The notes beneath the pieces are model-generated. The model ran no database searches. It was not told where the DNA came from and saw nothing but the letters and a program-made list of their open reading frames with translations. From Boothiomyces macroporosus (Eukaryota; Chytridiomycota; Chytridiomycetes; Rhizophydiales; Terramycetaceae), in the NCBI GenBank assembly GCA_027604185.1, contig JADGKB010000189.1, positions 1-18,376 of the forward strand: DNA of 18,376 nt, read 5' to 3'. A program made the position numbers and the translations under genes. The stretch's first letter is position 1. Each line of letters starts with the position of its first letter. Below, piece by piece: positions 425-18,376 of this stretch.

Positions 425-2625
425 ATGCAATCACAAATACCAATTGAATCCATTTACACATTCAACCACAACGATTACTTGATTTCATATCCAATCCGAA
501 ATGGTGCAATCACGGAAAACACAAATATAATATTACTTGAACCTGAAATTGAAACAAAACATTCAATTGAACCTGCGTATAAATCCCAATCATTAAATCA
601 TTTATTGTTGGGATCAAAGGAAGCTTACGAACTGAAATTGTTTGAAAATGATTACGTAATGCTGCTACCAATCAAACTTGTAGTTCAAGTCAAAATAATT
701 GATTTTGGGATTTACTTGGATTACAATTACAAATTGGATTCTTTTCTTTATAAAAAGGTCTTGCATGAATTCAAAGAATGCGAAAAGATTCTTGTTTATT
801 CTTTAGCAAGAAACCCTGATTTACAAGAACTGTATAAAGAGATTTGTGGACAAGTTGTGTTTAATGGTGTAATGATATTCACTGGAAATAATGGATACAA
901 ATTGAAAACAAAGACCCAGTCGTTAGTAACTAGAAATACTGTATTGGAATACAAAGGGATTTTGAAGCCAGTAAAGTATTTGGGGCTACAGGTTGGTTAC
1001 TTGCAAGAACCAAAAAATGTTAATCTGATTTACAAAAAGGTAGGATTCATATTGAATTATTTCTATTAGAATTAATTCTATTTATATTGATTTTACTCTA
1101 GTACAACAGTTTTCTGCTTTTAAAAGATTCTATTCAAAAAACAGTGGAAAATTTGAAATCAATATTGCTTCCTAATCATTATATAGTGCTGGAGCATTTT
1201 GAAGCATTTCAAGAGTCTTGGAGCGGGTAATTATTTTTGACTATAGGAGTAAACTAGATGGAAAGTATCTCTTGGAAAAGGTGTTTGATGAAACACAAGC
1301 GCATGTAGTGTGCCATTTAGAAAGAATTGATTTGATTGAAAAAGAGTATTTGAGCCTGTTTGACGAAATCACTGAAACGGAAATTCCTAATCAAGAAAAA
1401 AGACAAGAAATTCTAAAGCAATTTATAGATCACGTGGATTATAAAAGGATTGCTGTTCAGACGGCAGGAATGACTGAAAAGGAACTAAAGAAACTGGTTG
1501 AAAATGCAAAGATTGATTTAAAGAAAAATATTTTAACCAAACACAAAACTATTGTAGACAAACTGTTCCCAGAACAACTGGACGATCCAATTGTAAAGCA
1601 TTTAAAAACAAATGAAAAGTACAATGAATTCATTGAAACAGTCGAGCCTGTATTACAAACTAATGATTTAATCTCATCAGCAATCCAACTTAAGCAATCC
1701 AGTCAAACAGCAAAAATTCCAAATGTACAGTGGAAAGATGTTGGTGGTTTAGAACATGTGAAAAAAACAATTATTGAAACCATAAAATTACCACTAGATA
1801 ACCCACATTTCTTTGATGGGATGCAAAAAAGAAGTGGTATTCTGCTCTATGGACCACCTGGAACTGGTAAAACATTAATTGCGAAAGCAGTAGCTACTAC
1901 CCTACAATTAAACTTTTTTTCTATCAAAGGACCACAGTTGTTGAATCAATACGTTGGTGAAAGTGAAAAGAACGTTCGGATGGTGTTTGAGAGAGCTAGA
2001 GAAGCCAAGCCGTGCATCATATTCTTTGACGAATTGGATTCACTAGCACCAAAAAGAGGAGGTAGTGGTGATGGCGGTGGTGTAATGGACAGAATCGTAT
2101 CTCAATTGTTAGCTGAGCTTGATGGGTGTGGGGGATCAGATGTATTTTGTATCGGTGCTACGAATAGACCAGATTTACTTGATAGTGCATTACTAAGACC
2201 TGGTAGATTTGATAAACTGGTATACCTAGGACCAAGTACAGACAAAGTATCACTCCTTAGAGCGTGCATAAACAAGTACATGTAATTAATGTAGATTCGA
2301 TGTAGGCGATTTCGATATAGAATCATTCACCAGTAAAATCCCAGATGGATTCACTGGTGCAGATTACTACGCCTTATCTTCACGCGCATTCATGAACGCA
2401 ATCAAGAGACGCATCAAAGTGATAGACCAAGAACGAGGTGACTTTTCACCTAAAAAGTACATGGAAAAAGTTGGAGATGAAGGAAAAGTTGTGGTTCACG
2501 AACAAGATTTTGCTGATGCACTTGTTGGGCTTGAGCCTAGTGTTGGTAGAGAAGAGATGAAGCGGTATGAGAGTATTCGCAGGCAGTTTGAGCCTGTCAA
2601 AGATAAAGGAAAGAAGCCAATGTAA
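425..2625 (+). CDS. PEX6: Peroxisomal AAA+ ATPase PEX6 (peroxin-6), four exons
   Basis: PEX6 works with PEX1 to pull the ubiquitinated import receptor PEX5 out of the peroxisomal membrane. I join 425-1039, 1102-1226, 1247-2275 and 2295-2625 (699 aa). The C-terminal AAA domain (D2) is clear: Walker A GPPGTGKT (about 449-456), '[20 protein letters not shown]', Walker B IIFFDEL (D508, E509), the PEX6-typical stretch '[20 protein letters not shown]', sensor GATN (N553) and Arg fingers in LLRPGR (564, 567). The last exon carries the lid '[12 protein letters not shown]' and the family ending '[20 protein letters not shown]'. D1 is degenerate: a poor Walker A (GNNGYK, 154-159), then [10 protein letters not shown] in the Walker B position. 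The length is short against about 980-1030 aa in human and yeast, mostly in the N-terminal region. The ATG at 425 is the first in a 49-bp spacer. Confidence 0.88.
1040..1101 (+). other. PEX6: PEX6 intron 1 (62 nt)
   Basis: Phase-0 intron starting GTAGGA and ending TTTTACTCTAG. The upstream exon runs into TAG at 1067 if unspliced, and the downstream frame opens immediately after the AG at 1101, giving ...[16 protein letters not shown]... It is the only longer coding intron seen on this strand. An inner TAG at 1067-1069 would give a 30-nt intron but leads at once to TAA. Confidence 0.7.
1227..1246 (+). other. PEX6: PEX6 intron 2, 20-nt mini-intron
   Basis: GTAATTATTTTTGACTATAG. Removing it joins ...[13 protein letters not shown] to [13 protein letters not shown] without a stop, in the D1 domain between Walker B and the sensor region. 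Without removal the frame ends at TAA (1228-1230). It contains TTGAC six nucleotides before the end, like the other mini-introns. Confidence 0.8.
2276..2294 (+). other. PEX6: PEX6 intron 3, 19-nt mini-intron
   Basis: GTACATGTAATTAATGTAG. Removal joins SLLRACINK to [19 protein letters not shown] and so to [11 protein letters not shown]6 proteins have about 19 residues between the RKF-like motif and TGAD; this join gives 18. Unspliced, the frame hits TAA at 2283. A shorter GTAATTAATGTAG (13 nt, 2282-2294) also keeps frame, but the 19-nt version starts GTACATG like the intron in the exonuclease gene. Confidence 0.75.
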
Positions 2626-2785
2626 TAAAGCCAATTGAAAGTCTTGAAGGATTGTTTACTCGTGATCGTGATAGGAGCGCAGGTACGAGTTGCTGGACCA
2701 AATGGATCAGTTGGTAACTAAGAGTATGGTTCATGAGAGACACTTGTTTAAATGTTTTGAGTGATCAAAATATTTTTCCCACGAA
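2626..2785. other. 160-bp spacer between PEX6 and the zinc-finger gene
   Basis: No coding frame or RNA gene is visible. It must hold the PEX6 3' end and the promoter of the next gene. The last 30 bp before the ATG at 2786 are AT-rich (aaaatatttttccc). I see no clear AATAAA on the + strand. Confidence 0.5.
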
Positions 2786-5252
2786 ATGGCGAGTTGCGCA
2801 ACGTGCTCATTCCCAATCCTGCACAAACCAGACTTGAATTGCTACGCATGCAAATACAACGTACTCTTTACTAACTCAGATTGATATATGCGACGTTTGC
2901 GGTGCTCTAGCAAGAATGACCAACGATCAGCCAGTAGAACTGTTATCCACACCTATAAAGCTATGTACGGACTGTATCCATGAAAAACAAGACCGCAAGT
3001 TTAGTGTATGGATAAATTCAGTTTCTGGATTGAAAAAAGAGCGGATTGAAAAGATATTACGAAATCCTCATGTAGTTTCGGTTTACCAGCAAGAGTTGTA
3101 TGAACAGATAAAAAGCAATTTTCAAGAAACCGAGTATGAAGAGTATAGCGGTAGTATTATCAAAGAGCTGCCCTTCCGGTACGCTGACGATGAACCAATG
3201 GACATTGATGAACCAGTAATACCGACAATCAGACCATCACCAGTTAAAAACAATACAGACACTTTAAACGAAATGGTTCATGAAAAAAATGTATCCCCAA
3301 ATAGCGAATTCCCTCTTGATATTGCACAAGAGTCACCTCAACTAGATTTGATACCAGATCAAAATAATGAAGGGGACGAAGATATGGATACATCTTCAGA
3401 TGAATTTAAAGAAACTGTTGCTCCTATCGAAATTCCTAGCACCAAACCATCGCCGATATTTGAAAACCTTTCGCTATCTCCTGAAAGTACTAGTAAAATT
3501 GCTGAAGATGAAAGTGATTTGGTGGTTAAAAAGGTTACGGAAGCCACGAATCTTGTGCAGGATATAGATAACGATGTCCAAGCACAAGACCAGGATGTTG
3601 TTGCGGTTACTAAAAATCAATTACTAGTTGAGGATAATGATGTTGCTGCAGTTGTTAGCAAGGAGCGTGCGCAAGTTGAATACAAGGATATTGTCGAGAT
3701 CGCAGATGACGAAACTGCTCTCTTATGCAAAGAAGATGTAAAAAATGATACACCGTTTGAACTGAAAGCTTCCTCGGTTGATAAAACAAGTGCACGAGAG
3801 ATGGAATCCAGAGTTTTAAAAGAAAACAAGCAGGGAGAAAAAGATATTTCTTTGCATAGCTCTGTTCAATCATCAGTGGAGGCTAGTGATAAAGCAGCTG
3901 GCAAAACGTTGGAAAAGGCAATCGAACAGAAAACAGAAATGCAAGTATCTCTTGAAAAACAAGATAATCCTCACTCCCCAAAACGACCTGTAGAAACAAC
4001 ACCAGTAAATGCACAAAAGAAATCAAAGGTAGAGCAGGCAGACAGTCCACCAGTTCCGGTTACTTTTGAAAATGAATGTCAAGTAGAAATGGAGCTAGAT
4101 GATGATTCAGACAACTCGCTCATAATTGAATTAGAAGAAACTACTAATCAAGTTCAGCCTCAGACAAATATCTCAAATGAAAAGTCTAGTGACAACCTGG
4201 AAAGCAAAAAGACTGCATTTGCTGAAAGTATTAATCAATCCAAAGGCACCGATTCCCCAACCAAAGCAAACACACTTGAAAGAGGAAAGCCAGCTCCTCT
4301 CACAACTATTACTGCTCCAGTAAGACCAAAGTCTTCGATTTTAGATGTAATCAACAAGAAAAAGGAATCCAAGGATATAATGTCTGTCCTTACATCCAAA
4401 TCCAGCTATCCATCGATTGCACCAAAAGAATCTGAAAATGAAATTGAATTCATCAAATCTGTACCAATAACCCCAGAATCAAAAGATAAAAAAGATAAAA
4501 AAGATGAATTCAATACCAGCCAAGAGTTTATCCAAATAGATGTAGGCGAGGATGATTTGAGAAAAATAATCAATCCAGCACGGAATGCTCAACGGTCTGC
4601 AACCGATTCTGTGAAAAGCTCTGTTGCCCCACCTCTAGATTCCGAACCAAAACAAAGCAGTGCAGTAAATGAAGCGAAAGTTGTAAACCAAAAAGCAAAC
4701 TATGCTTTTACACCAAACAAACCCTCTCTTCATCCTCAAGCTAATACACCCACTATGACTGTTCAAACAGCGAATGACAATACTCAATTAGTAAATACTG
4801 GCACACCCAATGCTCCAGTGCCAAATGTTACCCCTACAACTACTCCAAGAAACCCGGTGCCAGCTACGCCTGAATTACATACACCAAAGACTCCATTAGT
4901 TGGTCCGAAACCTACTTCCAAACCTGTCATAAAGCCAGTGAAAAGCCTATTCCCAATGCTTACCCCAACAAATATTCCCAGAGAAAAGAATCATGGCATT
5001 TGCTACTACTGTCAGGAATACGATTACTTGAAGTACACCAACATTGTTGAAAATCCAAACTTTAAGCTCATCCCAATTTGTAAGACCTGCCACAAAAGTA
5101 AAGGCAAACAACCCGTACTTTGGTGGGTAAAGTCGCTCCAAGCACAGCAACAGCACTTTATCTGGAGTTTATTTAATATGCCAGAAAACCAACTTTTGAA
5201 AACAGAAGCACTGAATGAGGCAGCTCAGTTCGAAAACAATAAAGCCCAGTGA
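2786..5252 (+). CDS. Cross-brace-like zinc-finger protein with long disordered acidic middle, two exons
   Basis: Exons 2786-2860 and 2880-5252 encode 815 aa. The N-terminus holds four CxxC pairs (C4/C7, C19/C22, C29/C32, C54/C57), spacing C-x2-C-x11-C-x2-C-x6-C-x2-C-x21-C-x2-C. This resembles eight-cysteine two-zinc folds such as FYVE or rabphilin-type fingers, but the FYVE basic R(R/K)HHCR motif is absent. The middle (about 90-700) is predicted disordered, rich in Glu, Asp, Ser, Pro and Thr, with degenerate repeats near 'DQDVVAVTKNQLLVE' and 'DNDVAAVVSKERAQVE' and a KDKKDKKDEF lysine patch. Near the end is a second CxxC-x22-CxxC site (C733, C736, C759, C762). I do not recognise the family. 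The layout suits a nuclear scaffold or adaptor, which is only inference. The ATG at 2786 is chosen because exon 1 supplies half the finger. Confidence 0.75.
2861..2879 (+). other. 19-nt mini-intron with perfect TACTAAC branch motif
   Basis: GTACTCTTTACTAACTCAG, phase 0. Removing it joins NCYACKYN to IDICDVCGALARM and completes the eight-cysteine finger. Unspliced, a TGA follows at 2883-2885. The TACTAAC is the canonical fungal branch sequence, five nucleotides from the AG end. Confidence 0.85.
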
Positions 5253-5310
5253 TTTTTTTCTGTGATCTGTGATCTATGTACAGACATCCGTGACCGAAAA
5301 CTTTTGATAA

Positions 5311-6537
5311 ATGTTTAGATCGATCGTCGCAGAAACATATATAATATCGCAGTACCTTTCGCTGGTCGACTACCACAACCTCCGCTTTGCCTCCATAGAA
5401 ATCAACCTTTCATCCTACCCGCAATTATCGTGGCAAGCTTACGTACTGTCATCAACGATTTCACACCAAGATATATCTGAATTTATGACTGTCTCATCGC
5501 TCTCAATAACAGACGAGAAATTCATGTACTTTGTTGATAAACGTCACATTCAGCAATTATCTAAATCGTTCACTCCTCAAGTATCTTTTAAAACTGTACT
5601 TCGAGTATTACGAAACAATTTGTATGACATTCACTCTTTTCAGCCTGAAATTGTATTGGAGCTGTTGAAGCATATAGATCTGACTCGAATAAGTGTTTGC
5701 GAGATTGATCGTCTTTGGCATAGATCTATCGATACTTGTAGTGTAGAAATTGTCGAATTGATGCTGGAAAGAAACTTGCTGCTGGATCTAGAGTATGGTA
5801 TGTTTACTGCTTGTCAAGAAGGCTCGTACGAACTTGTCGATTTGCTAATTTCTTTTGGAGTAGATCCAAGCGTAAACGATTCTGAATCTTTGGTGATTGC
5901 ATGCAGGTACGGATACGATAAGATTGTTCAGTTGCTGCTTGCTGATCCAAGAGTCAACCCAAGCGGCAAAAACAATCAGGGATTAGTGTGGGCATGTAAA
6001 AATGGAAATACAAAAATAGTATGTGGATTGCTGCATTGTTATAACATGAATGCGACTATTGAACTAAAGAATGAATGCTTTCTTTTGGCGGTTGTCCGTG
6101 GGCATGATGATATCGTGGGGTTATTGATGGACGATGGGAGAATAGATCCGTATGTCCAGTCGAGTGCCCTGCTACATGCCGCGAAATGGGGGCATTTGGC
6201 TGTTTTAGAACTGTTGGTACAGGTATACAAAGTAGATTTGATGCACTTTGGAAACTTGGCATTTACAGCAGCGTGTGCCAACGGCTATTACTTGGTAGTA
6301 GAGTATATGCTCGGAATACAAGGAATAGATCCAAATTTTGACGGCAGCAGACCATTGTATTTGGCTGCACAAAATGGACACCTCAAAGTAGTCGAAATTC
6401 TTGCCAAAGATAAAAGGGTTGACGTCTCACAAAGTGTAATTCGAAGTGCAAAGAAGAATCGACACTTGGATATCTACAAGATATTGACTAATAGAAGTAG
6501 TACATTCTTGTGCTGGTGGAATATGCTTGTTTTTTAA
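5311..6537 (+). CDS. Ankyrin-repeat protein
   Basis: Intronless, 408 aa. Residues 1-130 are a helical non-repeat region starting 'MFRSIVAETYIISQYLSLVD'; a faint F-box likeness (YLSLVDYHNLRFASIEI) is not convincing. From about 135 to 395 there are roughly eight ankyrin units of about 30-33 residues, for example 'LVIACRYGYDKIVQLLLADP', 'SALLHAAKWGHLAVLELL' and 'PLYLAAQNGHLKVVEILAKD'. The linkers DPRVNPS, DGRIDP and DKRVDVS are typical of large ankyrin families in chytrid fungi and some protists. The repeats mediate protein binding; the partner cannot be told. The start is the ATG at 5311, 58 bp after the previous stop. The last residues (FLCWWNMLVF) are hydrophobic and leave the repeat pattern. 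There is no enzyme domain. Confidence 0.85.
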   Translation: MFRSIVAETYIISQYLSLVDYHNLRFASIEINLSSYPQLSWQAYVLSSTISHQDISEFMTVSSLSITDEKFMYFVDKRHIQQLSKSFTPQVSFKTVLRVLRNNLYDIHSFQPEIVLELLKHIDLTRISVCEIDRLWHRSIDTCSVEIVELMLERNLLLDLEYGMFTACQEGSYELVDLLISFGVDPSVNDSESLVIACRYGYDKIVQLLLADPRVNPSGKNNQGLVWACKNGNTKIVCGLLHCYNMNATIELKNECFLLAVVRGHDDIVGLLMDDGRIDPYVQSSALLHAAKWGHLAVLELLVQVYKVDLMHFGNLAFTAACANGYYLVVEYMLGIQGIDPNFDGSRPLYLAAQNGHLKVVEILAKDKRVDVSQSVIRSAKKNRHLDIYKILTNRSSTFLCWWNMLVF

Positions 6538-6696
6538 TATATTAATTTGTTTATAGGATTCTTGAGTAGACATCTCTCGATTTCGTTAGTATGCAGTACT
6601 TTCAAGTGATAATTTACACTATTTGCGGGTTTCTCTATTCAGCTCTAAAATCCAAAACTGGTATCAATTTTTATTTTTAATGTGAATGTCGATTTA
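6538..6696. other. 159-bp convergent spacer
   Basis: Lies between the ankyrin gene (+) and the C2HC gene (-). It holds the AATAAA of the minus-strand gene (see separate entry). No gene is visible. Confidence 0.6.
6670..6675 (-). terminator. Poly(A) signal AATAAA for the C2HC zinc-finger gene
   Basis: AATAAA on the minus strand about 22 nt after the stop codon at 6697-6699, within an A-rich stretch. Confidence 0.5.
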
Positions 6697-7821
6697 TCAT
6701 ACAGTGTGTCTCCGATGCTTCCATTTGACTTTTGATTGCGAATTCAAAACTGAAAGTATGGTATCTTCAACTTGATCCAGCTGAGAGTCCAAAATACTCA
6801 GTCTTTGGTGCATTCCTTGAATATTATCTTTAATTGCTATCGCAGGTGGTATTAATCCATTATCAGTTAGATATTTCATGATATTTACTTCTACTTGATC
6901 TAAACATTTGTGTAGCAGTGGTATTTTGACACACATTGCTTTGATTTCCTGGTTAACAGCATCAACCAATTCAAAAGCAGCACTAGATTGATCTGTATTG
7001 AAAATATCTGTTTCAAGCAATCTGGAAATCTCCCCAGAATCTGAGAAATGCTCGAATATCTTTGTGTAGTGCTCTATTTCTTTGGCACTATGACAAGGCA
7101 TGCTACTAGAATGGTGAATCCAGTTTAATGGGATATTCTTTATCGAAAACACAGTATTTTCATCACTATCTGGGTGTGTCGGAAATGTATTAGCCGGTTC
7201 AATATATTCTGGGTGATGATGCTGGATATGTTTTGAAAATCCCTCTAGCTGTTCACTTTGAAATATGCGTTTTGGGTGTTCCAAGTCCTCCGGTAAATTA
7301 TTGGTATATTGTATATTTTCAAGGCCGTTGAAATATCTATTTACAATTCCATTATCATTTTGGTTTTCTCCAAGTTCACTTTGATCTAGCACTATTTCGG
7401 TGTCGAGATCTGTATTTTTCTGTGTTATGCTTTTGGAATTTGGATATTCCGTCTTACCAGAGTTACATGTATTCTCAAACTTGTCAGAGTCCAACTCTTC
7501 CATTTCATTTGCAATAGTGTTTAGTGTGTTTTCGTTCGAGTCTTGGTTTTCAGTCAAGTGCCCATCCACAACTTGCATAGGATCGGTATTCTCCATGTTG
7601 GCATCCATTGCACTATTATCCAGAGATTCATCAATCTCAATTCTGTTATCTGGTTTGCCCGCAGTTGATTCTGGTGTCTTTAGTTGAAGATATTGATCAA
7701 GCATCCTTTTGTCATTATCCAAGCTTATTGAATACTTTGGACGGTCAAGGCACTGGATTGAATGAGTGTAGAGTCCTGTTGGTGTATCAAAGTTTTCTCT
7801 GCATTTTCGACATTCAAACAT
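6697..7821 (-). CDS. C2HC zinc-finger protein with C-terminal coiled coil, unknown
   Basis: Starting at the ATG at 7821 gives 374 aa: MFECRKCRENFDTPTGLYTH..., a single finger C4-x2-C7-x12-H20-x3-C24. An in-frame ATG at 7839 would add MGHFFF. The open frame runs still further upstream through the homopurine tract (a Phe/Leu/Ser/Pro run), but I reject that part as low-complexity. The middle is acidic and Asn-rich and probably disordered. Residues about 300-365 (from 'LLHKCLDQVEVNIMKYL' to 'LDSQLDQVEDTILSVLNSQS') look like a coiled coil, and the end is basic (KWKHRRHTV). Similar single fingers head some fungal transposon proteins, and this gene lies next to a transposase-like gene on the same strand, so it might be an accessory protein of that element. 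That is inference. No family recognised. Confidence 0.65.
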   Translation of the reverse strand: MFECRKCRENFDTPTGLYTHSIQCLDRPKYSISLDNDKRMLDQYLQLKTPESTAGKPDNRIEIDESLDNSAMDANMENTDPMQVVDGHLTENQDSNENTLNTIANEMEELDSDKFENTCNSGKTEYPNSKSITQKNTDLDTEIVLDQSELGENQNDNGIVNRYFNGLENIQYTNNLPEDLEHPKRIFQSEQLEGFSKHIQHHHPEYIEPANTFPTHPDSDENTVFSIKNIPLNWIHHSSSMPCHSAKEIEHYTKIFEHFSDSGEISRLLETDIFNTDQSSAAFELVDAVNQEIKAMCVKIPLLHKCLDQVEVNIMKYLTDNGLIPPAIAIKDNIQGMHQRLSILDSQLDQVEDTILSVLNSQSKVKWKHRRHTV

Positions 7822-7851
7822 GAAAAAAAAGTGGCCCATATGCCATGGTCT

Positions 7852-7950
7852 GGGAGGGGGAAAAGAGGGAAGGAGAGAGAAAGAGAGAAGAAAGGAAAGG
7901 GGAAGAGAGAGAAGGGAAGAAGGAAGAAAGAAAAGGAGAGGAAAAGAGAA
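7852..7950. repeat. 99-nt uninterrupted homopurine (G/A) tract
   Basis: Every + strand base from 7852 to 7950 is A or G (minus strand all pyrimidine). Such tracts can form triplex DNA, stall replication and break. The left end of the tandem triplication (7923) lies inside it. The last 28 bases of the tract are carried along at each repeat junction. Confidence 0.95.
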
Positions 7951-8001
7951 TTGCACTTACTTTTCAGAGTTTGAGTAGGAAAAGTAAAACAAATTGGGCT
8001 A

Positions 8002-8007
8002 TTTATT
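8002..8007 (-). terminator. Poly(A) signal AATAAA of exonuclease copy 1
   Basis: AATAAA about 15 nt downstream of the TAA on the minus strand. Identical sites lie at 11272-11277 and 14530-14535 in the other two units. Confidence 0.5.
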
Positions 8008-8021
8008 AATAAGCATGAAAC

Positions 8022-11000
8022 TTAGCGCCCCGAAGAAGGCTTTGCAGCTAGTCTTGGAGGGTTGTGTTTGAGATTCAACTGCTGTGATAGCTTTTTAACC
8101 TTGCAGTAGCTGCCTCCCCTACAGTTTTCCCTCTTGCAAGTTCTGCATTTTCGTTTTCTCTTTACTACGGTCGTATTACTATCGATTTGAGACAAAGAGG
8201 TCAGAACTGATTCAAAAGTCGGCAAAGGTTCTGATTCGACACGTTCAACTGGCGTTATAGGTTCAGGGGCTATTGTTACAACAGGTTCCACTGTGATACC
8301 GCCTATATTTGATGTTGGTATTGAATCTAGTCGGAAGTCTTCATTGTTTACATCATCAATATTAAAATTAATATCATTCTCCAAGATATCTACCATATTT
8401 TCCAAGGTGTCCCTTTGACTATCTGTACCAGTAGTAACAAAAGTAACTTCCTGGATTGTATCCTGAATATTAAAATCCCTAGCTGAAAGAACTAGATTCT
8501 GAACAGTGCTTAGTATATTTGCCTCATGAATCTCATAGTCATACCCAAGTATTGGTACAGGCTCTGCCACTCCAAACTCGTAATTTGAAATGTCAGCTTC
8601 AGTTAAATGATTCGTGCTGTGAATTCCGGACAATAGTACCTTTTTTTCCAAAGATCTTAAATAGAAAGTCTGGTATGTCTGTAAATGGGTATCCAGCTTC
8701 TTCCAAATATCATTGTGGCCAAGAGGTTTGAACTCGGACAAGTTTCTCCCTTCCAAACACTTTAATGTTCCTGCATTCCAATCTTCTGCCATTGCTTTAA
8801 AGTCTACCTTACTCCCTTTTATGTAGTAAGATTGGGAAGTCAGAAATAGCCTTCTTTCCTTTTTTGTAGCGACCCGAAGATAAGGCACGTTGGTTTTTGT
8901 TCGCCGTGCCAAATACTTCATTGAAGGGGAATACTTGGCAATTGCGTGTTCATTTATGGTTTCATGCTGCTCTTTAGGCAGAATAGGCGCAATTCCAAAA
9001 CTTTCATTTGTAACAGTTAACCCTTTTGCAACCGGCCACCAATTGTATCGTCTTTCTCTAAACAAATGATAGTTGAGCTCCTCAATATCATCCAACAGGT
9101 TATGCGAATAGTGTCCAAGTCTTGGAAAGTTGGGTCTATTTCTTTCAGAAGCCCGTATATTCCGTCTGTGCCGAAGAATTGTCATGCAGCAATTTGCGAA
9201 TTTTACCCCCGAATTCCATGATTGAAAATGCATTTCAAGATATTGGTGGAATAGTTCCACTTCATTTGTCCCCCGAATGCATCTGTACAGCGTCAAAGAA
9301 TTTGCGTCCGTTCCTTTTTTGTAATACACTTCCAAATCTTCTGGATCTCTGATACAACCTTTTTCAACATGGGCCAACAAATTTTTAAACTGCTTTTTTG
9401 TTTCTGCAGAGAGTAATTCGCCATACCTACCTATTTTATACTTGGATTTTGAATATTCACAAAGTAGGTTTTGAATATTGGCTTTTAAAAGTCCCTTTGG
9501 ATAGATTTTCCGTCTTACCCTAGCCAATATCCATCTAGGATCTGCAAGATACTTGTCTTCAAATTCCATTCCAAATTTTTCTTTGAGGACAGTCGTCACG
9601 CTATTGACGTCCGCCTCGTTCATAAAGAAGAATGATTTACTAAGTGCCCTACAAAACTTGAAATTAAAGGGGTGCTTCACTGAAACGGTATCTGTTATCC
9701 TTTTCATAGCATGAAAAACATCCAGCAATACAGCAGACTTTATATCACCTGGGTCAATCGGTGGTGAGGGGCTTTCATCAACGTTCGACAGCAAGGATGG
9801 AGATATTTCGTCTGAAGTTAATGACGGAGAATAATCAGTAAAATTATCTTCCATTGTGTCCTGATAAACATAGTTTGGGTCTTTTTCCTTTTCACTTTTA
9901 ATAGCCATTAACTTGTTGTATATCAAAATTGACGCCCAAGCATCCCTAGCTGCATATGCAATCTGAATTTGACTTAGAGGTGTTTTCCAATTAGACTTCC
10001 TACGTAAATCATCCTTTTCCAGTGTTCTAAACAATATCTTTTCACAGTATGCCTTTAAACTCAGATTGCCAGGCAAACCTAAAACTTGCTTTGCTAGTTT
10101 TTCTAGTTTTACGCAGGTATTCCTTGGAATGCTACATTTCCACATTTTTAAATGTTTGACGTCTGCCGAAATAATGCTCCGTCCTACTTTGATAACTTTT
10201 GGCGACTCCAGAATCTGTTTTAATATATCAGGAAAGGTCTGGAGATTTGCTATGTGTATAACATAAATAATTGGAAACGGATGGCTAAGCGCAATCTGAA
10301 CAACTTCCGGCTTTGGTTCAATCCCATCAATTACAGTCCACTCTGTATCTAGTCCAATTACTATTTCGTCTTCACTTTTAATTAGATTGTTTAGATTATA
10401 TAAACTGGATAAAATGGTTTCATGAGTGCTGCAGTGAATAATCAAGTTCATCTGAGGTAGAGGCAATAGTGAGAAAGGATACATATTTCTGGTGATTGTA
10501 GGAAGGCACTTTTCATAAAATGCCCGATCGGAGCAGCAATTATCTGTATATACATACTTGACATTTGTATTGTAGAGTTCTTGTGTTTCCCGAAAAGCAT
10601 TTACTGCGCATTCTAATTCGCCAAGGCTGCTAGATTGAACACACAGTGATAATCGTATTTCCGAGAATTCGTTTAATGCAGTGAATTTGCCTTCAACTAA
10701 TTTGACACCATTATTCTGCATGATGTGGTTTCCCACCTGAAATAAACTCGATAATACCTTGTAGCTGTGGTCAACCCGTAAAACGGTTGTTGTTCTGCGT
10801 TGCATTTCTAATTCATAGTATTTCATTTTCTTTTCTACTTCATCTTGGAAAATGGTCGTGAGGTATTTTTCTGAGTCAATCAATCATGTACCACTTGGCA
10901 CCTTTCCCATATACTGCTCCTTATCTGTAAAGGTAGAGAACTTTGGCAACTGTTTCAACTTTGCTAGAGTAAATCCAAAGTGAGAGCTCTTTTCTGCATC

Positions 11001-11188
11001 GGTTAGAGAGTCGTAATGCACTTTCAGAGTTTGAAGTAGGGACAAATACTTTAGTTCCAACTCATGATGTCTCTCGGCTGACAGTTCAAGCAGTTGCTTG
11101 CGTACAGCAGAGATTCCAAAGGAGTTCTCGATCGACGAAAAAAGGAATTTCAACAGATCCTTGTCTATTGCTGCTCGATGAGTTAAAA
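8022..11188 (-). CDS. Transposase-like/3'-5' exonuclease gene, copy 1: 5'-truncated, lacks DUF6729 domain
   Basis: Exon C remainder (11188-10892), a 21-nt intron (10891-10871) and exon D (10870-8022). All downstream motifs match copy 3: DDE-like aspartates in RVDHSYK and YTDNCC, exonuclease DTEW, SADVKHL and YAARD, then LLDVFHAMKR, RGTNEVE and the C-terminal Cys cluster. The duplication junction at 11192 replaced the DUF6729 exons with homopyrimidine sequence and the 3' UTR of copy 2. The frame is open upstream across the junction to the TAA of copy 2, but the first in-frame ATG is MGKVPS, just before the intron, after an out-of-frame ATG. Translation of a full product is therefore doubtful. 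If made, it would lack the N-terminal zinc-binding domain. I treat it as a recent partial duplicate, intact in its body. Confidence 0.75.
10871..10891 (-). other. 21-nt mini-intron, copy 1
   Basis: Starts GTACATG, holds TTGAC and ends TCAG (minus strand). Removal joins GKVPS to EKYLTTIFQDEVEKK. It contains an in-frame TGA (10884-10886), so the unspliced message would end. Confidence 0.82.
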
Positions 11189-11230
11189 CTGCGAAGAAAG
11201 AAAAGGAGAGGAAAAGAGAATTGCACTTAC
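11189..11230 (-). other. Chimeric 42-nt intron-like sequence at repeat junction 1/2
   Basis: On the minus strand it reads GTAAGTGCAATTC, a pyrimidine run, then CTTCGCAG. It was formed by the duplication: the left part comes from the C2HC-gene leader region and GCAG comes from the coding sequence FPAVLTHR. It looks like a usable intron but lacks the branch motif of the other introns. The same sequence is at 14447-14488. Confidence 0.3.
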
Positions 11231-11291
11231 TTTTCAGAGTTTGAGTAGGAAAAGTAAAACAAATTGGGCTATTTATTAATAAGCATGAAAC

Positions 11292-14200
11292 TTAGCGCCC
11301 CGAAGAAGGCTTTGCAGCTAGTCTTGGAGGGTTGTGTTTGAGATTCAACTGCTGTGATAGCTTTTTAACCTTGCAGTAGCTGCCTCCCCTACAGTTTTCC
11401 CTCTTGCAAGTTCTGCATTTTCGTTTTCTCTTTACTACGGTCGTATTACTATCGATTTGAGACAAAGAGGTCAGAACTGATTCAAAAGTCGGCAAAGGTT
11501 CTGATTCGACACGTTCAACTGGCGTTATAGGTTCAGGGGCTATTGTTACAACAGGTTCCACTGTGATACCGCCTATATTTGATGTTGGTATTGAATCTAG
11601 TCGGAAGTCTTCATTGTTTACATCATCAATATTAAAATTAATATCATTCTCCAAGATATCTACCATATTTTCCAAGGTGTCCCTTTGACTATCTGTACCA
11701 GTAGTAACAAAAGTAACTTCCTGGATTGTATCCTGAATATTAAAATCCCTAGCTGAAAGAACTAGATTCTGAACAGTGCTTAGTATATTTGCCTCATGAA
11801 TCTCATAGTCATACCCAAGTATTGGTACAGGCTCTGCCACTCCAAACTCGTAATTTGAAATGTCAGCTTCAGTTAAATGATTCGTGCTGTGAATTCCGGA
11901 CAATAGTACCTTTTTTTCCAAAGATCTTAAATAGAAAGTCTGGTATGTCTGTAAATGGGTATCCAGCTTCTTCCAAATATCATTGTGGCCAAGAGGTTTG
12001 AACTCGGACAAGTTTCTCCCTTCCAAACACTTTAATGTTCCTGCATTCCAATCTTCTGCCATTGCTTTAAAGTCTACCTTACTCCCTTTTATGTAGTAAG
12101 ATTGGGAAGTCAGAAATAGCCTTCTTTCCTTTTTTGTAGCGACCCGAAGATAAGGCACGTTGGTTTTTGTTCGCCGTGCCAAATACTTCATTGAAGGGGA
12201 ATACTTGGCAATTGCGTGTTCATTTATGGTTTCATGCTGCTCTTTAGGCAGAATAGGCGCAATTCCAAAACTTTCATTTGTAACAGTTAACCCTTTTGCA
12301 ACCGGCCACCAATTGTATCGTCTTTCTCTAAACAAATGATAGTTGAGCTCCTCAATATCATCCAACAGGTTATGCGAATAGTGTCCAAGTCTTGGAAAGT
12401 TGGGTCTATTTCTTTCAGAAGCCCGTATATTCCGTCTGTGCCGAAGAATTGTCATGCAGCAATTTGCGAATTTTACCCCCGAATTCCATGATTGAAAATG
12501 CATTTCAAGATATTGGTGGAATAGCTCCACTTCATTTGTCCCTCGAATGCATCTGTACAGCGTCAAAGAATTTGCGTCCGTTCCTTTTTTGTAATACACT
12601 TCCAAATCTTCTGGATCTCTGATACAACCTTTTTCAACATGGGCCAACAAATTTTTAAACTGCTTTTTTGTTTCTGCAGAGAGTAATTCGCCATACCTGC
12701 CTACTCTATACTTGGATTTTGAATATTCACAAAGTAGGTTTTGAATATTGGTTTTTAAAAGCTCCTTTGGATAGATTTTCCGTCTCACCCTAGCCAATAT
12801 CCATCTAGGATCTGCAAGATACTTGTCTTCAAATTCCATTCCAAATTTTTCTTTGAGGACAGTCGTCACGCTATTGACGTCCGCCTCGTTCATAAAGAAG
12901 AATGATTTACTAAGTGCCCTACAAAACTTGAAATTAAAGGGGTGCTTCACTGAAACGGTATCTGTTATCCTTTTCATAGCATGAAAAACATCCAGCAATA
13001 CAGCAGACTTTATATCACCTGGGTCAATCGGTGGTGAGGGGCTTTCATCAACGTTCGACAGCAAGGATGGAGATATTTCGTCTGAAGTTAATGACGGAGA
13101 ATAATCAGTAAAATTATCTTCCATTGTGTCCTGATAAACATAGTTTGGGTCTTTTTCCTTTTCACTTTTAATAGCCATTAACTTGTTGTATATCAAAATT
13201 GACGCCCAAGCATCCCTAGCTGCATATGCAATCTGAATTTGACTTAGAGGTGTTTTCCAATTAGACTTCCTACGTAAATCATCCTTTTCCAGTGTTCTAA
13301 ACAATATCTTTTCACAGTATGCCTTTAAACTCAGATTGCCAGGCAAACCTAAAACTTGCTTTGCTAGTTTTTCTAGTTTTACGCAGGTATTCCTTGGAAT
13401 GCTACATTTCCACATTTTTAAATGTTTGACGTCTGCCGAAATAATGCTCCGTCCTACTTTGATAACTTTTGGCGACTCCAGAATCTGTTTTAATATATCA
13501 GGAAAGGTCTGGAGATTTGCTATGTGTATAACATAAATAATTGGAAACGGATGGCTAAGCGCAATCTGAACAACTTCCGGCTTTGGTTCAATCCCATCAA
13601 TTACAGTCCACTCTGTATCTAGTCCAATTACTATTTCGTCTTCACTTTTAATTAGATTGTTTAGATTATATAAACTGGATAAAATGGTTTCATGAGTGCT
13701 GCAGTGAATAATCAAGTTCATCTGAGGTAGAGGCAATAGTGAGAAAGGATACATATTTCTGGTGATTGTAGGAAGGCACTTTTCATAAAATGCCCGATCG
13801 GAGCAGCAATTATCTGTATATACATACTTGACATTTGTATTGTAGAGTTCTTGTGTTTCCCGAAAAGCATTTACTGCGCATTCTAATTCGCCAAGGCTGC
13901 TAGATTGAACACACAGTGATAATCGTATTTCCGAGAATTCGTTTAATGCAGTGAATTTGCCTTCAACTAATTTGACACCATTATTCTGCATGATGTGGTT
14001 TCCTACCTGAAATAAACTCGATAATACCTTGTAGCTGTGGTCAACCCGTAAAACGGTTGTTGTTCTGCGTTGCATTTCTAATTCATAGTATTTCATTTTC
14101 TTTTCTACTTCATCTTGGAAAATGGTTGTGAGGTATTTTTCTGGTCAATCAATCATGTACCACTTGGCACCTTTCCCATATACTGCTCCTTATCTGTAAA

Positions 14201-14446
14201 TGTAGAGAACTTTGGCAACTGTTTCAACTTTGCTAGAGTAAATCCAAAGTGAGAGCTCTTTTCTGCATCGGTAATGCACTTTCAGAGTTTGAAGTAGGGA
14301 CAAATACTTTAGTTCCAACTCATGATGTCTCTCGGCTGACAGTTCAAGCAGTTGCTTGCGTACAGCAGAGATTCCAAAGGAGTTCTCGATCGACGAAAAA
14401 AGGAATTTCAACAGATCCTTGTCTATTGCTGCTCGATGAGTTAAAA
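11292..14446 (-). pseudogene. Transposase-like/3'-5' exonuclease gene, copy 2: truncated and frameshifted
   Basis: Same layout as copy 1: exon C remainder 14446-14161, intron 14160-14141, exon D 14140-11292. An 11-bp deletion at about 14272 (minus-strand frame ...LQTLKVHY) shifts exon C into a stop after about 23 codons, so exon C cannot join exon D. Exon D itself is fully open (from the intron to 11292) with all catalytic motifs. It has four amino-acid changes near 464-484 of the long open frame (G to E, A to T, K to R, I to V), all in one dense patch of substitutions. The mini-intron is 20 nt here, having lost one T near its 3' end, yet the flanking exon sequence is unchanged. It could still yield a protein starting at the internal ATG at 14096 (MKYYELEMQRR), which would keep the DDE and exonuclease parts. 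Confidence 0.75.
14141..14160 (-). other. 20-nt mini-intron, copy 2 (1-nt shorter allele)
   Basis: GTACATGATTGATTGACCAG on the minus strand. Copies 1 and 3 have one extra T (GACTCAG against GACCAG). The indel falls inside the proposed intron and leaves the splice boundaries intact, supporting intron status. Confidence 0.82.
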
Positions 14447-14549
14447 CTGCGAAGAAAGAAAAGGAGAGGAAAAGAGAATTGCACTTACTTTTCAGAGTTT
14501 GAGTAGGAAAAGTAAAACAAATTGGGCTATTTATTAATAAGCATGAAAC

Positions 14550-17500
14550 TTAGCGCCCCGAAGAAGGCTTTGCAGCTAGTCTTGGAGGGTTGTGTTTGAG
14601 ATTCAACTGCTGTGATAGCTTTTTAACCTTGCAGTAGCTGCCTCCCCTACAGTTTTCCCTCTTGCAAGTTCTGCATTTTCGTTTTCTCTTTACTACGGTC
14701 GTATTACTATCGATTTGAGACAAAGAGGTCAGAACTGATTCAAAAGTCGGCAAAGGTTCTGATTCGACACGTTCAACTGGCGTTATAGGTTCAGGGGCTA
14801 TTGTTACAACAGGTTCCACTGTGATACCGCCTATATTTGATGTTGGTATTGAATCTAGTCGGAAGTCTTCATTGTTTACATCATCAATATTAAAATTAAT
14901 ATCATTCTCCAAGATATCTACCATATTTTCCAAGGTGTCCCTTTGACTATCTGTACCAGTAGTAACAAAAGTAACTTCCTGGATTGTATCCTGAATATTA
15001 AAATCCCTAGCTGAAAGAACTAGATTCTGAACAGTGCTTAGTATATTTGCCTCATGAATCTCATAGTCATACCCAAGTATTGGTACAGGCTCTGCCACTC
15101 CAAACTCGTAATTTGAAATGTCAGCTTCAGTTAAATGATTCGTGCTGTGAATTCCGGACAATAGTACCTTTTTTTCCAAAGATCTTAAATAGAAAGTCTG
15201 GTATGTCTGTAAATGGGTATCCAGCTTCTTCCAAATATCATTGTGGCCAAGAGGTTTGAACTCGGACAAGTTTCTCCCTTCCAAACACTTTAATGTTCCT
15301 GCATTCCAATCTTCTGCCATTGCTTTAAAGTCTACCTTACTCCCTTTTATGTAGTAAGATTGGGAAGTCAGAAATAGCCTTCTTTCCTTTTTTGTAGCGA
15401 CCCGAAGATAAGGCACGTTGGTTTTTGTTCGCCGTGCCAAATACTTCATTGAAGGGGAATACTTGGCAATTGCGTGTTCATTTATGGTTTCATGCTGCTC
15501 TTTAGGCAGAATAGGCGCAATTCCAAAACTTTCATTTGTAACAGTTAACCCTTTTGCAACCGGCCACCAATTGTATCGTCTTTCTCTAAACAAATGATAG
15601 TTGAGCTCCTCAATATCATCCAACAGGTTATGCGAATAGTGTCCAAGTCTTGGAAAGTTGGGTCTATTTCTTTCAGAAGCCCGTATATTCCGTCTGTGCC
15701 GAAGAATTGTCATGCAGCAATTTGCGAATTTTACCCCCGAATTCCATGATTGAAAATGCATTTCAAGATATTGGTGGAATAGTTCCACTTCATTTGTCCC
15801 TCGAATGCATCTGTACAGCGTCAAAGAATTTGCGTCCGTTCCTTTTTTGTAATACACTTCCAAATCTTCTGGATCTCTGATACAACCTTTTTCAACATGG
15901 GCCAACAAATTTTTAAACTGCTTTTTTGTTTCTGCAGAGAGTAATTCGCCATACCTACCTATTTTATACTTGGATTTTGAATATTCACAAAGTAGGTTTT
16001 GAATATTGGCTTTTAAAAGTCCCTTTGGATAGATTTTCCGTCTTACCCTAGCCAATATCCATCTAGGATCTGCAAGATACTTGTCTTCAAATTCCATTCC
16101 AAATTTTTCTTTGAGGACAGTCGTCACGCTATTGACGTCCGCCTCGTTCATAAAGAAGAATGATTTACTAAGTGCCCTACAAAACTTGAAATTAAAGGGG
16201 TGCTTCACTGAAACGGTATCTGTTATCCTTTTCATAGCATGAAAAACATCCAGCAATACAGCAGACTTTATATCACCTGGGTCAATCGGTGGTGAGGGGC
16301 TTTCATCAACGTTCGACAGCAAGGATGGAGATATTTCGTCTGAAGTTAATGACGGAGAATAATCAGTAAAATTATCTTCCATTGTGTCCTGATAAACATA
16401 GTTTGGGTCTTTTTCCTTTTCACTTTTAATAGCCATTAACTTGTTGTATATCAAAATTGACGCCCAAGCATCCCTAGCTGCATATGCAATCTGAATTTGA
16501 CTTAGAGGTGTTTTCCAATTAGACTTCCTACGTAAATCATCCTTTTCCAGTGTTCTAAACAATATCTTTTCACAGTATGCCTTTAAACTCAGATTGCCAG
16601 GCAAACCTAAAACTTGCTTTGCTAGTTTTTCTAGTTTTACGCAGGTATTCCTTGGAATGCTACATTTCCACATTTTTAAATGTTTGACGTCTGCCGAAAT
16701 AATGCTCCGTCCTACTTTGATAACTTTTGGCGACTCCAGAATCTGTTTTAATATATCAGGAAAGGTCTGGAGATTTGCTATGTGTATAACATAAATAATT
16801 GGAAACGGATGGCTAAGCGCAATCTGAACAACTTCCGGCTTTGGTTCAATCCCATCAATTACAGTCCACTCTGTATCTAGTCCAATTACTATTTCGTCTT
16901 CACTTTTAATTAGATTGTTTAGATTATATAAACTGGATAAAATGGTTTCATGAGTGCTGCAGTGAATAATCAAGTTCATCTGAGGTAGAGGCAATAGTGA
17001 GAAAGGATACATATTTCTGGTGATTGTAGGAAGGCACTTTTCATAAAATGCCCGATCGGAGCAGCAATTATCTGTATATACATACTTGACATTTGCATTG
17101 TAGAGTTCTTGTGTTTCCCGAAAAGCATTTACTGCGCATTCTAATTCGCCAAGGCTGCTAGATTGAACACACAGTGATAATCGTATTTCCGAGAATTCGT
17201 TTAATGCAGTGAATTTGCCTTCAACTAATTTGACACCATTATTCTGCATGATGTGGTTTCCCACCTGAAATAAACTCGATAATACCTTGTAGCTGTGGTC
17301 AACCCGTAAAACGGTTGTTGTTCTGCGTTGCATTTCTAATTCATAGTATTTCATTTTCTTTTCTACTTCATCTTGGAAAATGGTCGTGAGGTATTTTTCT
17401 GAGTCAATCAATCATGTACCACTTGGCACCTTCCCCATATACTGCTCCTTATCTGTAAAGGTAGAGAACTTTGGCAACTGTTTCAACTTTGCTAGAGTAA

Positions 17501-18376
17501 ATCCAAAGTGAGAGCTCTTTTCTGCATCGGTTAGAGAGTCGTAATGCACTTTCAGAGTTTGAAGTAGGGACAAATACTTTAGTTCCAACTCATGATGTCT
17601 CTCGGCTGACAGTTCAAGCAGTTGCTTGCGTACAGCAGAGATTCCAAAGGAGTTCTCGATCGACGAAAAAAGGAATTTCAACAGATCCTTGTCTATTGCT
17701 GCTCGATGAGTTAAAACTGCAGGAAATTCTAAATTCAGCCAAGTTAAAAATATGCTACAAAACATGGCAAAGCTTCCATTACTTCATCAGAGATAGAGCT
17801 CAACTTCTTGGTACAGCCATCTTTCCTGCAGAGGTACATTTGAAATATCAAAAAGTAATAGTCACCCAATCCATACACAATCCTGGGTCTGTCTCCCCAG
17901 CCAGAAGTTGTAAACGATTTTGCATCCACTTTCCCTCGGTTACCACACTTTGGGCAACTCAAGACTAGTGCTGGCAGAATTAAGTGTGGGGCCCAAACAT
18001 ACACTCTTCTGCGATAATAGTGCTTGGGATCTGGGGCTTTTCCAGATTGATAACCATTCCAAATTTTGATATTTGGGTTTGGAGGGTCAATCCAGAAACG
18101 ATTTAATCCACCATTGAAAGAAATCTTGGCGTTGACTTCGGTCTGAGCATTAATAATTGATACCTGTACAGATTTTAAATAGTCCGTCATATTTGGATTC
18201 AAGTCATACCATCGAAGTGGTTTTGGAGTTGAATTGCTATGTCTTCCATCCTCGTCATCGTCCGTGCAGATAATATCATCTGCAGTTACAATATATAAGT
18301 ACCACAATCCAGTGAATCCAGGTTTTCATTGTTGAACAAATCCTCAGGAATCACTTCTTCCTCTGGCTCGCTTGAG
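14550..18376 (-). CDS. DUF6729 + DDE transposase-like + DEDDy 3'-5' exonuclease protein, copy 3 (5' end outside window)
   Basis: Exons on the minus strand: A 18376-18303 (partial), B 18279-17759, C 17738-17420, D 17398-14550; 1253 residues visible. Residues about 85-260 match a DUF6729-type zinc-binding domain: CPKCG (133-137), C175/C180, then the family ending FPAVLTHRAAIDKDLL. Next is an RNase H-like DDE core: RVDHSYK (D338) and YTDNCCSDR (D414). A WRN/RNase D-like DEDDy exonuclease follows at about 470-630: DTEW (D479, E481), SADVKHL (D541), YAARD (Y610, D614). LLDVFHAMKR (D688) and RGTNEVELFH (E841/E843) then resume a transposase-like pattern. A C-x2-C-x4-C-x5-C cluster (C1213-C1227) lies near the end. 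It is most likely a DNA transposon protein or a domesticated derivative. The acidic start (SSEPEEEV) shows the true N-terminus is upstream. One intron ends GG, so function is uncertain. Confidence 0.75.
17399..17419 (-). other. 21-nt mini-intron, copy 3
   Basis: Phase 1, starts GTACATG, holds TTGAC, ends TCAG. Removal joins GKVPS to EKYLTTIFQDEV and removes an in-frame TGA (17412-17414). Confidence 0.82.
17739..17758 (-). other. 20-nt mini-intron ending in GG instead of AG
   Basis: GTAGCATATTTTTAACTTGG on the minus strand. Removal joins VMEALPCF to LNLEFPAVLTHRAAIDK in frame and gives six residues between LP and FP, as I recall for DUF6729 proteins. TTAAC sits five nucleotides from the end, exactly as in the AG-ended introns. 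No GT...AG pair nearby restores both frame and the FPAVLTHR motif. Confidence 0.6.
18280..18302 (-). other. 23-nt mini-intron
   Basis: Starts GTACTTAT, holds GTAAC and ends TGCAG (minus strand), phase 1. Removal joins ENLDSLDC to DDIICTDDDEDGRHS, both acidic. The unspliced sequence is also open (it would add residues such as YLYIVTA but shift frame), so exon A is connected only if the intron is removed. Confidence 0.65.

Follow-up and report, generated by a model that had tools for sequence, protein, structure and literature searches.

A predicted genome-wide class of 19–22-nt GT-AG introns in a likely fungal genome

Introduction

How small an intron can the spliceosome remove? This is an open structural question, and the extremes described in the sources cited below belong to ciliates, to the relict nuclei of algae and to reduced parasites. 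It is raised anew by a stretch of 18,376 nucleotides (nt), contig C189 of a genome of 15.2 Mb in 216 contigs, hereafter the window. Six sites of 19–23 nt in its genes had been proposed, in an original prediction made from the letters alone, to restore reading frames as introns and to belong to a population of spliceosomal introns of about 20 nt, here called tiny introns. On the DNA and protein evidence, the family is real and genome-wide. The best explanation is that U2-type GT-AG spliceosomal introns have shrunk to 19–22 nt throughout the genome of a fungal or near-fungal lineage, a reading to which a probability of roughly 0.93 is assigned.

Length class and consensus

The sample comprised 200 kb, taken as twenty 10-kb stretches (the first 100 kb each of contigs C1 and C2). 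The content of guanine + cytosine was 38–39% in the genome stretches fetched. A motif-free gene-structure search was based on codon scores, allowed introns of 10–300 nt, was neutral with respect to length, and compared GT..AG with seven control end pairs. Introns of 18–24 nt made up 74 of the 179 GT-AG introns found; the control pairs gave 9, 10, 12, 13, 15, 20 and 21 in this range, and the peak is present in GT-AG alone of the eight pairs. Lengths of 19, 20, 21 and 22 nt are represented by 15, 33, 13 and 11 introns, respectively. No excess of GT-AG over the controls was found in this run at 25–40 nt (13 vs 22–30), 41–60 nt (9 vs 17–29), 61–100 nt (9 vs 13–21) or 101–300 nt (59 vs 52–66). The 72 motif-free introns of 19–22 nt start with GTA in 90% of cases, followed by A and T. 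Near the 3′ end they are T-T-A-rich; an A lies 5 or 6 nt before the last base, and YAG closes the intron. In 68 of them, a T.A core occupies either of two fixed registers. The full YTRAY motif is present in 47, and in 45 of these the A lies 5–7 nt from the end.

The trained predictor is a gene model with a motif learnt from the motif-free peak at 19–22 nt. It was run at three intron costs. At the middle cost, 189 of 257 introns were of 19–22 nt (40, 92, 36 and 21 by increasing length), one was of 18 nt and three were of 23–24 nt; at the other two costs the share at 19–22 nt was 221/351 and 151/201. In 185 of the 189, the best match to the branch motif puts its A at a distance of 5 or 6 nt from the 3′ end. 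A length histogram and a motif comparison had been put forward as checks in the original prediction. The histogram of predicted introns has a sharp peak at 19–22 nt with a mode of 20, and a GTA donor, a YTAAY-like branch and YAG were recovered by position. The layout shown by the predicted introns is a GTAATTT-like donor, a YTAAY-like branch site whose A precedes the end by 5–6 nt, and a YAG acceptor.

Counts made blind to coding potential agree with this length class. The consensus occurs 141 times at 19–22 nt vs 16 times in reversed sequence, and is near the control at most of the remaining lengths between 14 and 40 nt (16 nt, 7 vs 3; 31 nt, 15 vs 4). A second class at 31 nt was considered and rejected: 11 of the 15 cases contain an inner GT giving 19–24 nt, and the sequences are diverse. 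Over the whole 15.2 Mb, the strict pattern GTAA-N6..9-YTAAYNYAG (19–22 nt in total) was found 2853 times vs 190 for the reversed pattern, a 15-fold excess. No excess of this consensus was found genome-wide at total lengths of 15–18 nt (102 vs 180 reversed) or 23–52 nt (982 vs 1286 reversed), 52 nt being the upper end of the search. Two further scans with coding scores gave results in the same direction. The strict scan at 19–24 nt, which has little power, returned 7 GT-AG cases, whereas none of eight controls gave more than one. The relaxed scan at 18–24 nt returned 89 of 622 for GT-AG, and 13–68 for 21 control pairs (top AA..AG, 68/1457).

Of the 189 tiny introns predicted, 39 fit the strict pattern. 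By extrapolation, the genome would hold about 13,000–14,000 (about 13,000 by scaling of the strict pattern, about 14,000 from 189 per 200 kb). The lower estimate is slightly inflated because of apparent large duplications in contigs C2 and C20. In these contigs, constant match offsets of 42,596 and 45,067 bases, respectively, were observed, both outside the 200-kb sample; they suggest large recent duplications or assembly duplicates.

Junctions in conserved proteins

Solved structures served as the reference for the predicted spliced proteins, whose junctions were judged by eye in the printed alignments. A chaperonin search brought in nine regions, five of which (contigs C64, C75, C18, C25 and C17) were compared; two more genes, RPC1 and MSH2, were taken from 39 predictions with at least three introns. 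Before counting, one intron in CCT gamma (27 nt) and one in RPC1 (19 nt) were excluded as lying outside the alignments, as were the C18 introns predicted from residue 524 on, which reach into a neighbouring gene. Introns of 44 and 111 nt were kept apart from the tiny ones.

Gap-free junctions were found at 28 of the 29 alignable tiny introns in the seven proteins. CCT theta (C64) has introns of 20, 20, 19, 23, 20 and 20 nt, gap-free at 6/6. CCT alpha (C75) has introns of 20, 20 and 21 nt, gap-free at 3/3, and one of 111 nt. CCT delta (C18) has introns of 22, 21, 20, 21 and 20 nt, gap-free at 5/5. CCT gamma (C25) has introns of 20 and 19 nt, gap-free at 2/2, and one of 44 nt. HSP60 (C17) has introns of 23 and 21 nt, gap-free at 2/2; the 23-nt intron comes from the motif-free run, the trained run having started the gene later. 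MSH2 is gap-free at 6/6 and RPC1 at 4/5. The population of about 20-nt spliceosomal introns that had been predicted is accordingly upheld by the length peak, the 15-fold consensus excess and these flush junctions outside the window.

The gene model of CCT gamma had kept seven residues, GNLDFIV, as coding sequence. Exactly these seven are absent from all five printed chains, and three further CCT gamma chains fall seven residues short of the query over the part that contains the insertion. The DNA of the insertion, GTAATCTTGATTTCATTGTAG, is a candidate stop-free intron of 21 nt. An avoidance of lengths divisible by three was considered and set aside: all 36 predicted 21-nt introns contain an in-frame stop, but the search is blind to stop-free ones. 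Enrichment of GATC in tiny introns, an idea taken from the CCT genes, was likewise rejected (2/189 vs a shuffled mean of 4.9).

The longer introns bear on the view that tiny introns are one class among several and that many introns of ordinary length were missed by the search. The 44-nt and 111-nt introns of the CCT genes speak for it, together with a 62-nt candidate in the Pex6-like gene of the window (positions 1040–1101, plus strand, a choice of the trained predictor); introns of greater length are difficult to call from sequence, and the pattern search ended at 52 nt. Set against these are the motif-free run, in which GT-AG exceeds the seven controls in no longer bin, and the strict consensus, which is without excess at 23–52 nt. 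This view is regarded as very unlikely. Compared with shuffles, the folding of the 111-nt, 44-nt and 62-nt introns gave z values of −1.6, −2.0 and −1.9, respectively, for these three cases only. In each the donor end is paired in the predicted fold, which might bring donor and branch together.

Sites and genes of the window

Five of the six sites are GT..AG stretches with frames joined on removal, as had been claimed; the sixth, at 17739–17758, joins frames and ends in GG. The five rank in the top 0.4–4.6% of 6077 GT..AG pairs of 19–23 nt. A GTAC start in four of the six, also claimed, is read directly in the sequence. The distance between branch motif and AG, given earlier as 3–5 nt, is corrected here to 2–3 nt in the five GT-AG sites.

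Two sites belong to a Pex6-like gene on the plus strand. The first, GTAATTATTTTTGACTATAG (20 nt, 1227–1246), ranks within the top 0.4% of these pairs and was chosen by the trained predictor. The second, GTACATGTAATTAATGTAG (19 nt, 2276–2294), joins ACIN to KFDVG on removal, flush with (R/K)-K-F in 15 of 15 homologues aligned, picked from 120 fetched; a 13-nt sub-piece was taken here by the trained predictor. The third, GTACTCTTTACTAACTCAG (19 nt, 2861–2879, plus strand), lies close to the beginning of a gene in which cysteine pairs recur, and its removal joins cysteine-pair stretches. It ranks within the top 1.3%. The trained predictor took a 166-nt intron with the identical acceptor, and a Pfam search with this gene gave no family above the cut-off.

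The other sites lie on the minus strand in a gene with DUF6729 and a 3′-5′ exonuclease. The stretch GTACATGATTGATTGACTCAG (21 nt, 17399–17419) contains an in-frame TGA and was chosen by the trained predictor. The copies claimed for it were found in part as described: an exact repeat copy at 10871–10891 (minus strand), also chosen by the trained predictor, and in the middle tandem copy a version one base shorter (20 nt, 14141–14160, minus strand). These copies belong to tandem repeats that are almost identical (99.2 and 99.8% in the two BLAST pieces), and they are not independent. The stretch GTACTTATATATTGTAACTGCAG (23 nt, 18280–18302), near the start of the gene, joins frames, was not chosen by the trained predictor, and is outside the DUF6729 Pfam match, so that homology gives it no support.

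The intron-like stretch GTAGCATATTTTTAACTTGG (20 nt, 17739–17758) reads GTAG...TTGG, holds a run of five T, and was not chosen by the trained predictor. With it removed, DUF6729 scores 72.5 bits, vs 50.3 bits with the shortest GT-AG alternative (47 nt); with the frames kept separate, the scores are 40.9 and 19.4 bits. A gap of 20 nt thus fits the domain best, despite the non-AG end. The GG may be a decayed acceptor, a non-canonical acceptor or a base error. This stretch, with its missing AG and its five-T run, suits the proposal that indels from assembly or base calling, together with in-frame stops, merely mimic tiny introns; any site alone is indeed no more than a frame change or one stop. 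Such errors would yield neither a sharp 19–22-nt class with GT, AG and a branch motif at a constant position, nor the 21-nt insertion of identical build, exact and in frame, seen in CCT gamma; the proposal is judged extremely improbable.

The Pex6-like AAA ATPase gene spans 425–2625 (plus strand, span from the trained predictor) and contains the two tiny introns and the 62-nt candidate. Its AAA domain scores 157.6 bits, and the database matches are named peroxin-6. The gene with DUF6729 and the 3′-5′ exonuclease (14550–18325, minus strand) is the first copy in a three-copy tandem array. Its exonuclease part occurs three times in tandem at 7923–17726 (minus strand), each copy being about 3.26 kb long and nearly identical to the others. 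The first part of the DUF6729 domain is absent from the other two copies, and the middle copy has an extra frame change. The stretches 5311–6537 and 6697–7956 hold, respectively, an ankyrin-repeat gene predicted to be intron-free and a 419-residue minus-strand open reading frame without a Pfam match.

Splicing machinery

U2 RNA, at two places, and U6 RNA were found in the genome, both above the cut-off, and an SF1 gene is present. These bear on whether the inserts are removed as RNA at all. Tiny introns are 70.6% AT, and short AT-rich in-gene inserts of one size would, by size alone, also fit removal at the DNA level, as with the internal eliminated sequences of ciliates, or translational bypassing. 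GT..AG ends and a YTAAY-like site 5–6 nt upstream are, however, what splicing needs; the 44-nt and 111-nt introns have the same build, and the genome contains U2, U6 and SF1. Removal by either of these routes is considered highly improbable. The matches do not suggest a spliceosome as small as the one reported for mikrocytids (PMC10245619).

Affinity of the host

The host is likely a fungus or a close relative, to judge from sequence comparisons. The Pex6 tree, built on one gene only, places it with fungi at 94/92, below the star mark of the tree tool. By path it is nearest to Homolaphlyctis and Paraphysoderma. For HSP60, the two top scores, 844 and 804 bits, go to chains named glomalin and mitochondrial HSP60-like, respectively, both taken here to be fungal; the rest of the list reaches at most 647. 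CCT alpha, CCT delta and full-length RPC1 score best against one set of chains, presumably from yeast, and CCT theta and CCT gamma against another, presumably from vertebrates.

The fungal host of the original prediction is therefore supported as likely, by Pex6 and HSP60, and falls short of proof: the Pex6 branch is long (4.39), its placement was rated unsure by the tree tool, and no starred set contains Pex6. The tiny introns could in principle be real and the host another fast-evolving eukaryote. The long, unsurely placed branch favours this, as do the higher scores of CCT theta and gamma against the supposed vertebrate chains than against yeast. The grouping of Pex6 with fungi, the HSP60 scores, and the best matches of CCT alpha, CCT delta and RPC1 to chains assumed to be from yeast argue against it. 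A non-fungal host is held to be unlikely. By eye, two predicted proteins of contig C2 resemble a flagellar protein and a cyclic-nucleotide-gated channel; this impression would fit a swimming fungus.

Discussion

Several points weigh against the reading of a genome-wide class of shrunken spliceosomal introns. Every splice is inferred from DNA and protein sequence. The figure of 189 tiny introns depends on the motif-free peak, on which the motif of the predictor was trained. Outside 19–22 nt lie 68 of the 257 predicted introns (37 at 101–300 nt, where calls are unreliable), and with 44-nt and 111-nt introns supported in two CCT genes, splicing is not confined to 20 nt. In the window, the trained predictor picked two of the six named sites (1227–1246 and 17399–17419) and other pieces at four, and the GG end of 17739–17758 violates the AG rule. 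One RPC1 junction has a gap of two residues. Three unprinted CCT gamma chains (5gw4, 4v81 and 6ks6) match the query length over the insertion piece. A U1-like RNA scores 68.8 bits, just below the cut-off of 69.5, and a genome search for U5 RNA gave no match, but no control matched either; both could be due to divergence. The match to the large U2AF subunit, from a search run exon by exon, reaches 230.7 bits vs a cut-off of 310.3, and this family also matches weakly in 2 of 14 bacterial and archaeal controls.

Ultra-short introns as such are already known, in nucleomorphs, ciliates and mikrocytids. Introns of chlorarachniophyte nucleomorphs are GT-AG, of 18–23 nt, 793–1,028 per genome, with odd ones of 40 and 41 nt; very short GT-AG introns plus a few longer ones are common to both systems (PMC4494063). 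Unlike in these relict algal nuclei (PMC4494063), the genome here is nuclear, of 15.2 Mb, with at least 13,000 introns by extrapolation; its branch sites are clearly YTAAY-like, and it has genes for SF1 and for a U2AF-like protein. Introns of the heterotrich ciliate Stentor are of 15–16 nt, with a loop of 10–11 nt and a branch A that precedes the intron end by about 5 nt (PMC9505925). Among its splicing factors, Cwc25 reportedly differs in its plug and Isy1 at its start (PMC9505925). The narrow length class and nearly identical 3′ tail are shared, whereas Stentor is described there as having no strong branch consensus, and the introns here are of 19–22 nt with a clear consensus and a loop of 14–16 nt (PMC9505925). 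Mikrocytids, rhizarian parasites with a strongly reduced spliceosome, have introns of 16–17 nt (n = 224), similar in their narrow length class and conserved sequence (PMC10245619). Paramecium and Nyctotherus have introns of about 25 bp, with pressure on 3n introns shown; they too are ultra-short genome-wide, and the class described here is shorter (PMC5014332). Cryptococcus also has many short introns, called relatively short at a mean of 63 bp, which is three times longer than here (PMC8476143).

The claim that no fungus has been described with such introns is checkable only in part: none with introns near 20 nt turned up in the literature searches, whose coverage is partial, and absence from print is not established. 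Microsporidian introns are of 23 nt and up. In these fungal relatives they are short and few per genome (PMC10245619).

A mechanism can be proposed for the tiny introns. U1 would pair with the GTAA donor and U2 with the YTAAY branch site, about 13–15 nt apart. The branching step would close a loop of about 14–16 nt, and the first AG, 5–6 nt past the branch, would then be used. The tail is of 5–6 nt, and therefore no polypyrimidine tract fits after the branch; U2AF, if acting, would have to rely on the T-rich sequence upstream of the branch or else work on the longer introns. The abrupt lower limit of 19 nt would mark the least donor-to-branch distance tolerated by the spliceosome, and the equally abrupt upper limit could reflect a bias towards deletions or selection for a single geometry. 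It is rather probable that a flagellated or early-branching fungus independently reached this intron floor of 19–22 nt with SF1 and a U2AF-like protein kept.

If so, no shorter intron population would be known from fungi, the set would rank among the largest ultra-short ones anywhere, and one fixed geometry (donor, 14–16-nt loop, 5–6-nt tail) would serve as a ruler. Introns of 19–22 nt are near the shortest known in any organism and form a test of the minimal piece that splicing can excise. A fungus related to the model yeasts, in which housekeeping genes are conserved and the branch motif is clear, would make this limit testable with yeast structures and genetics.

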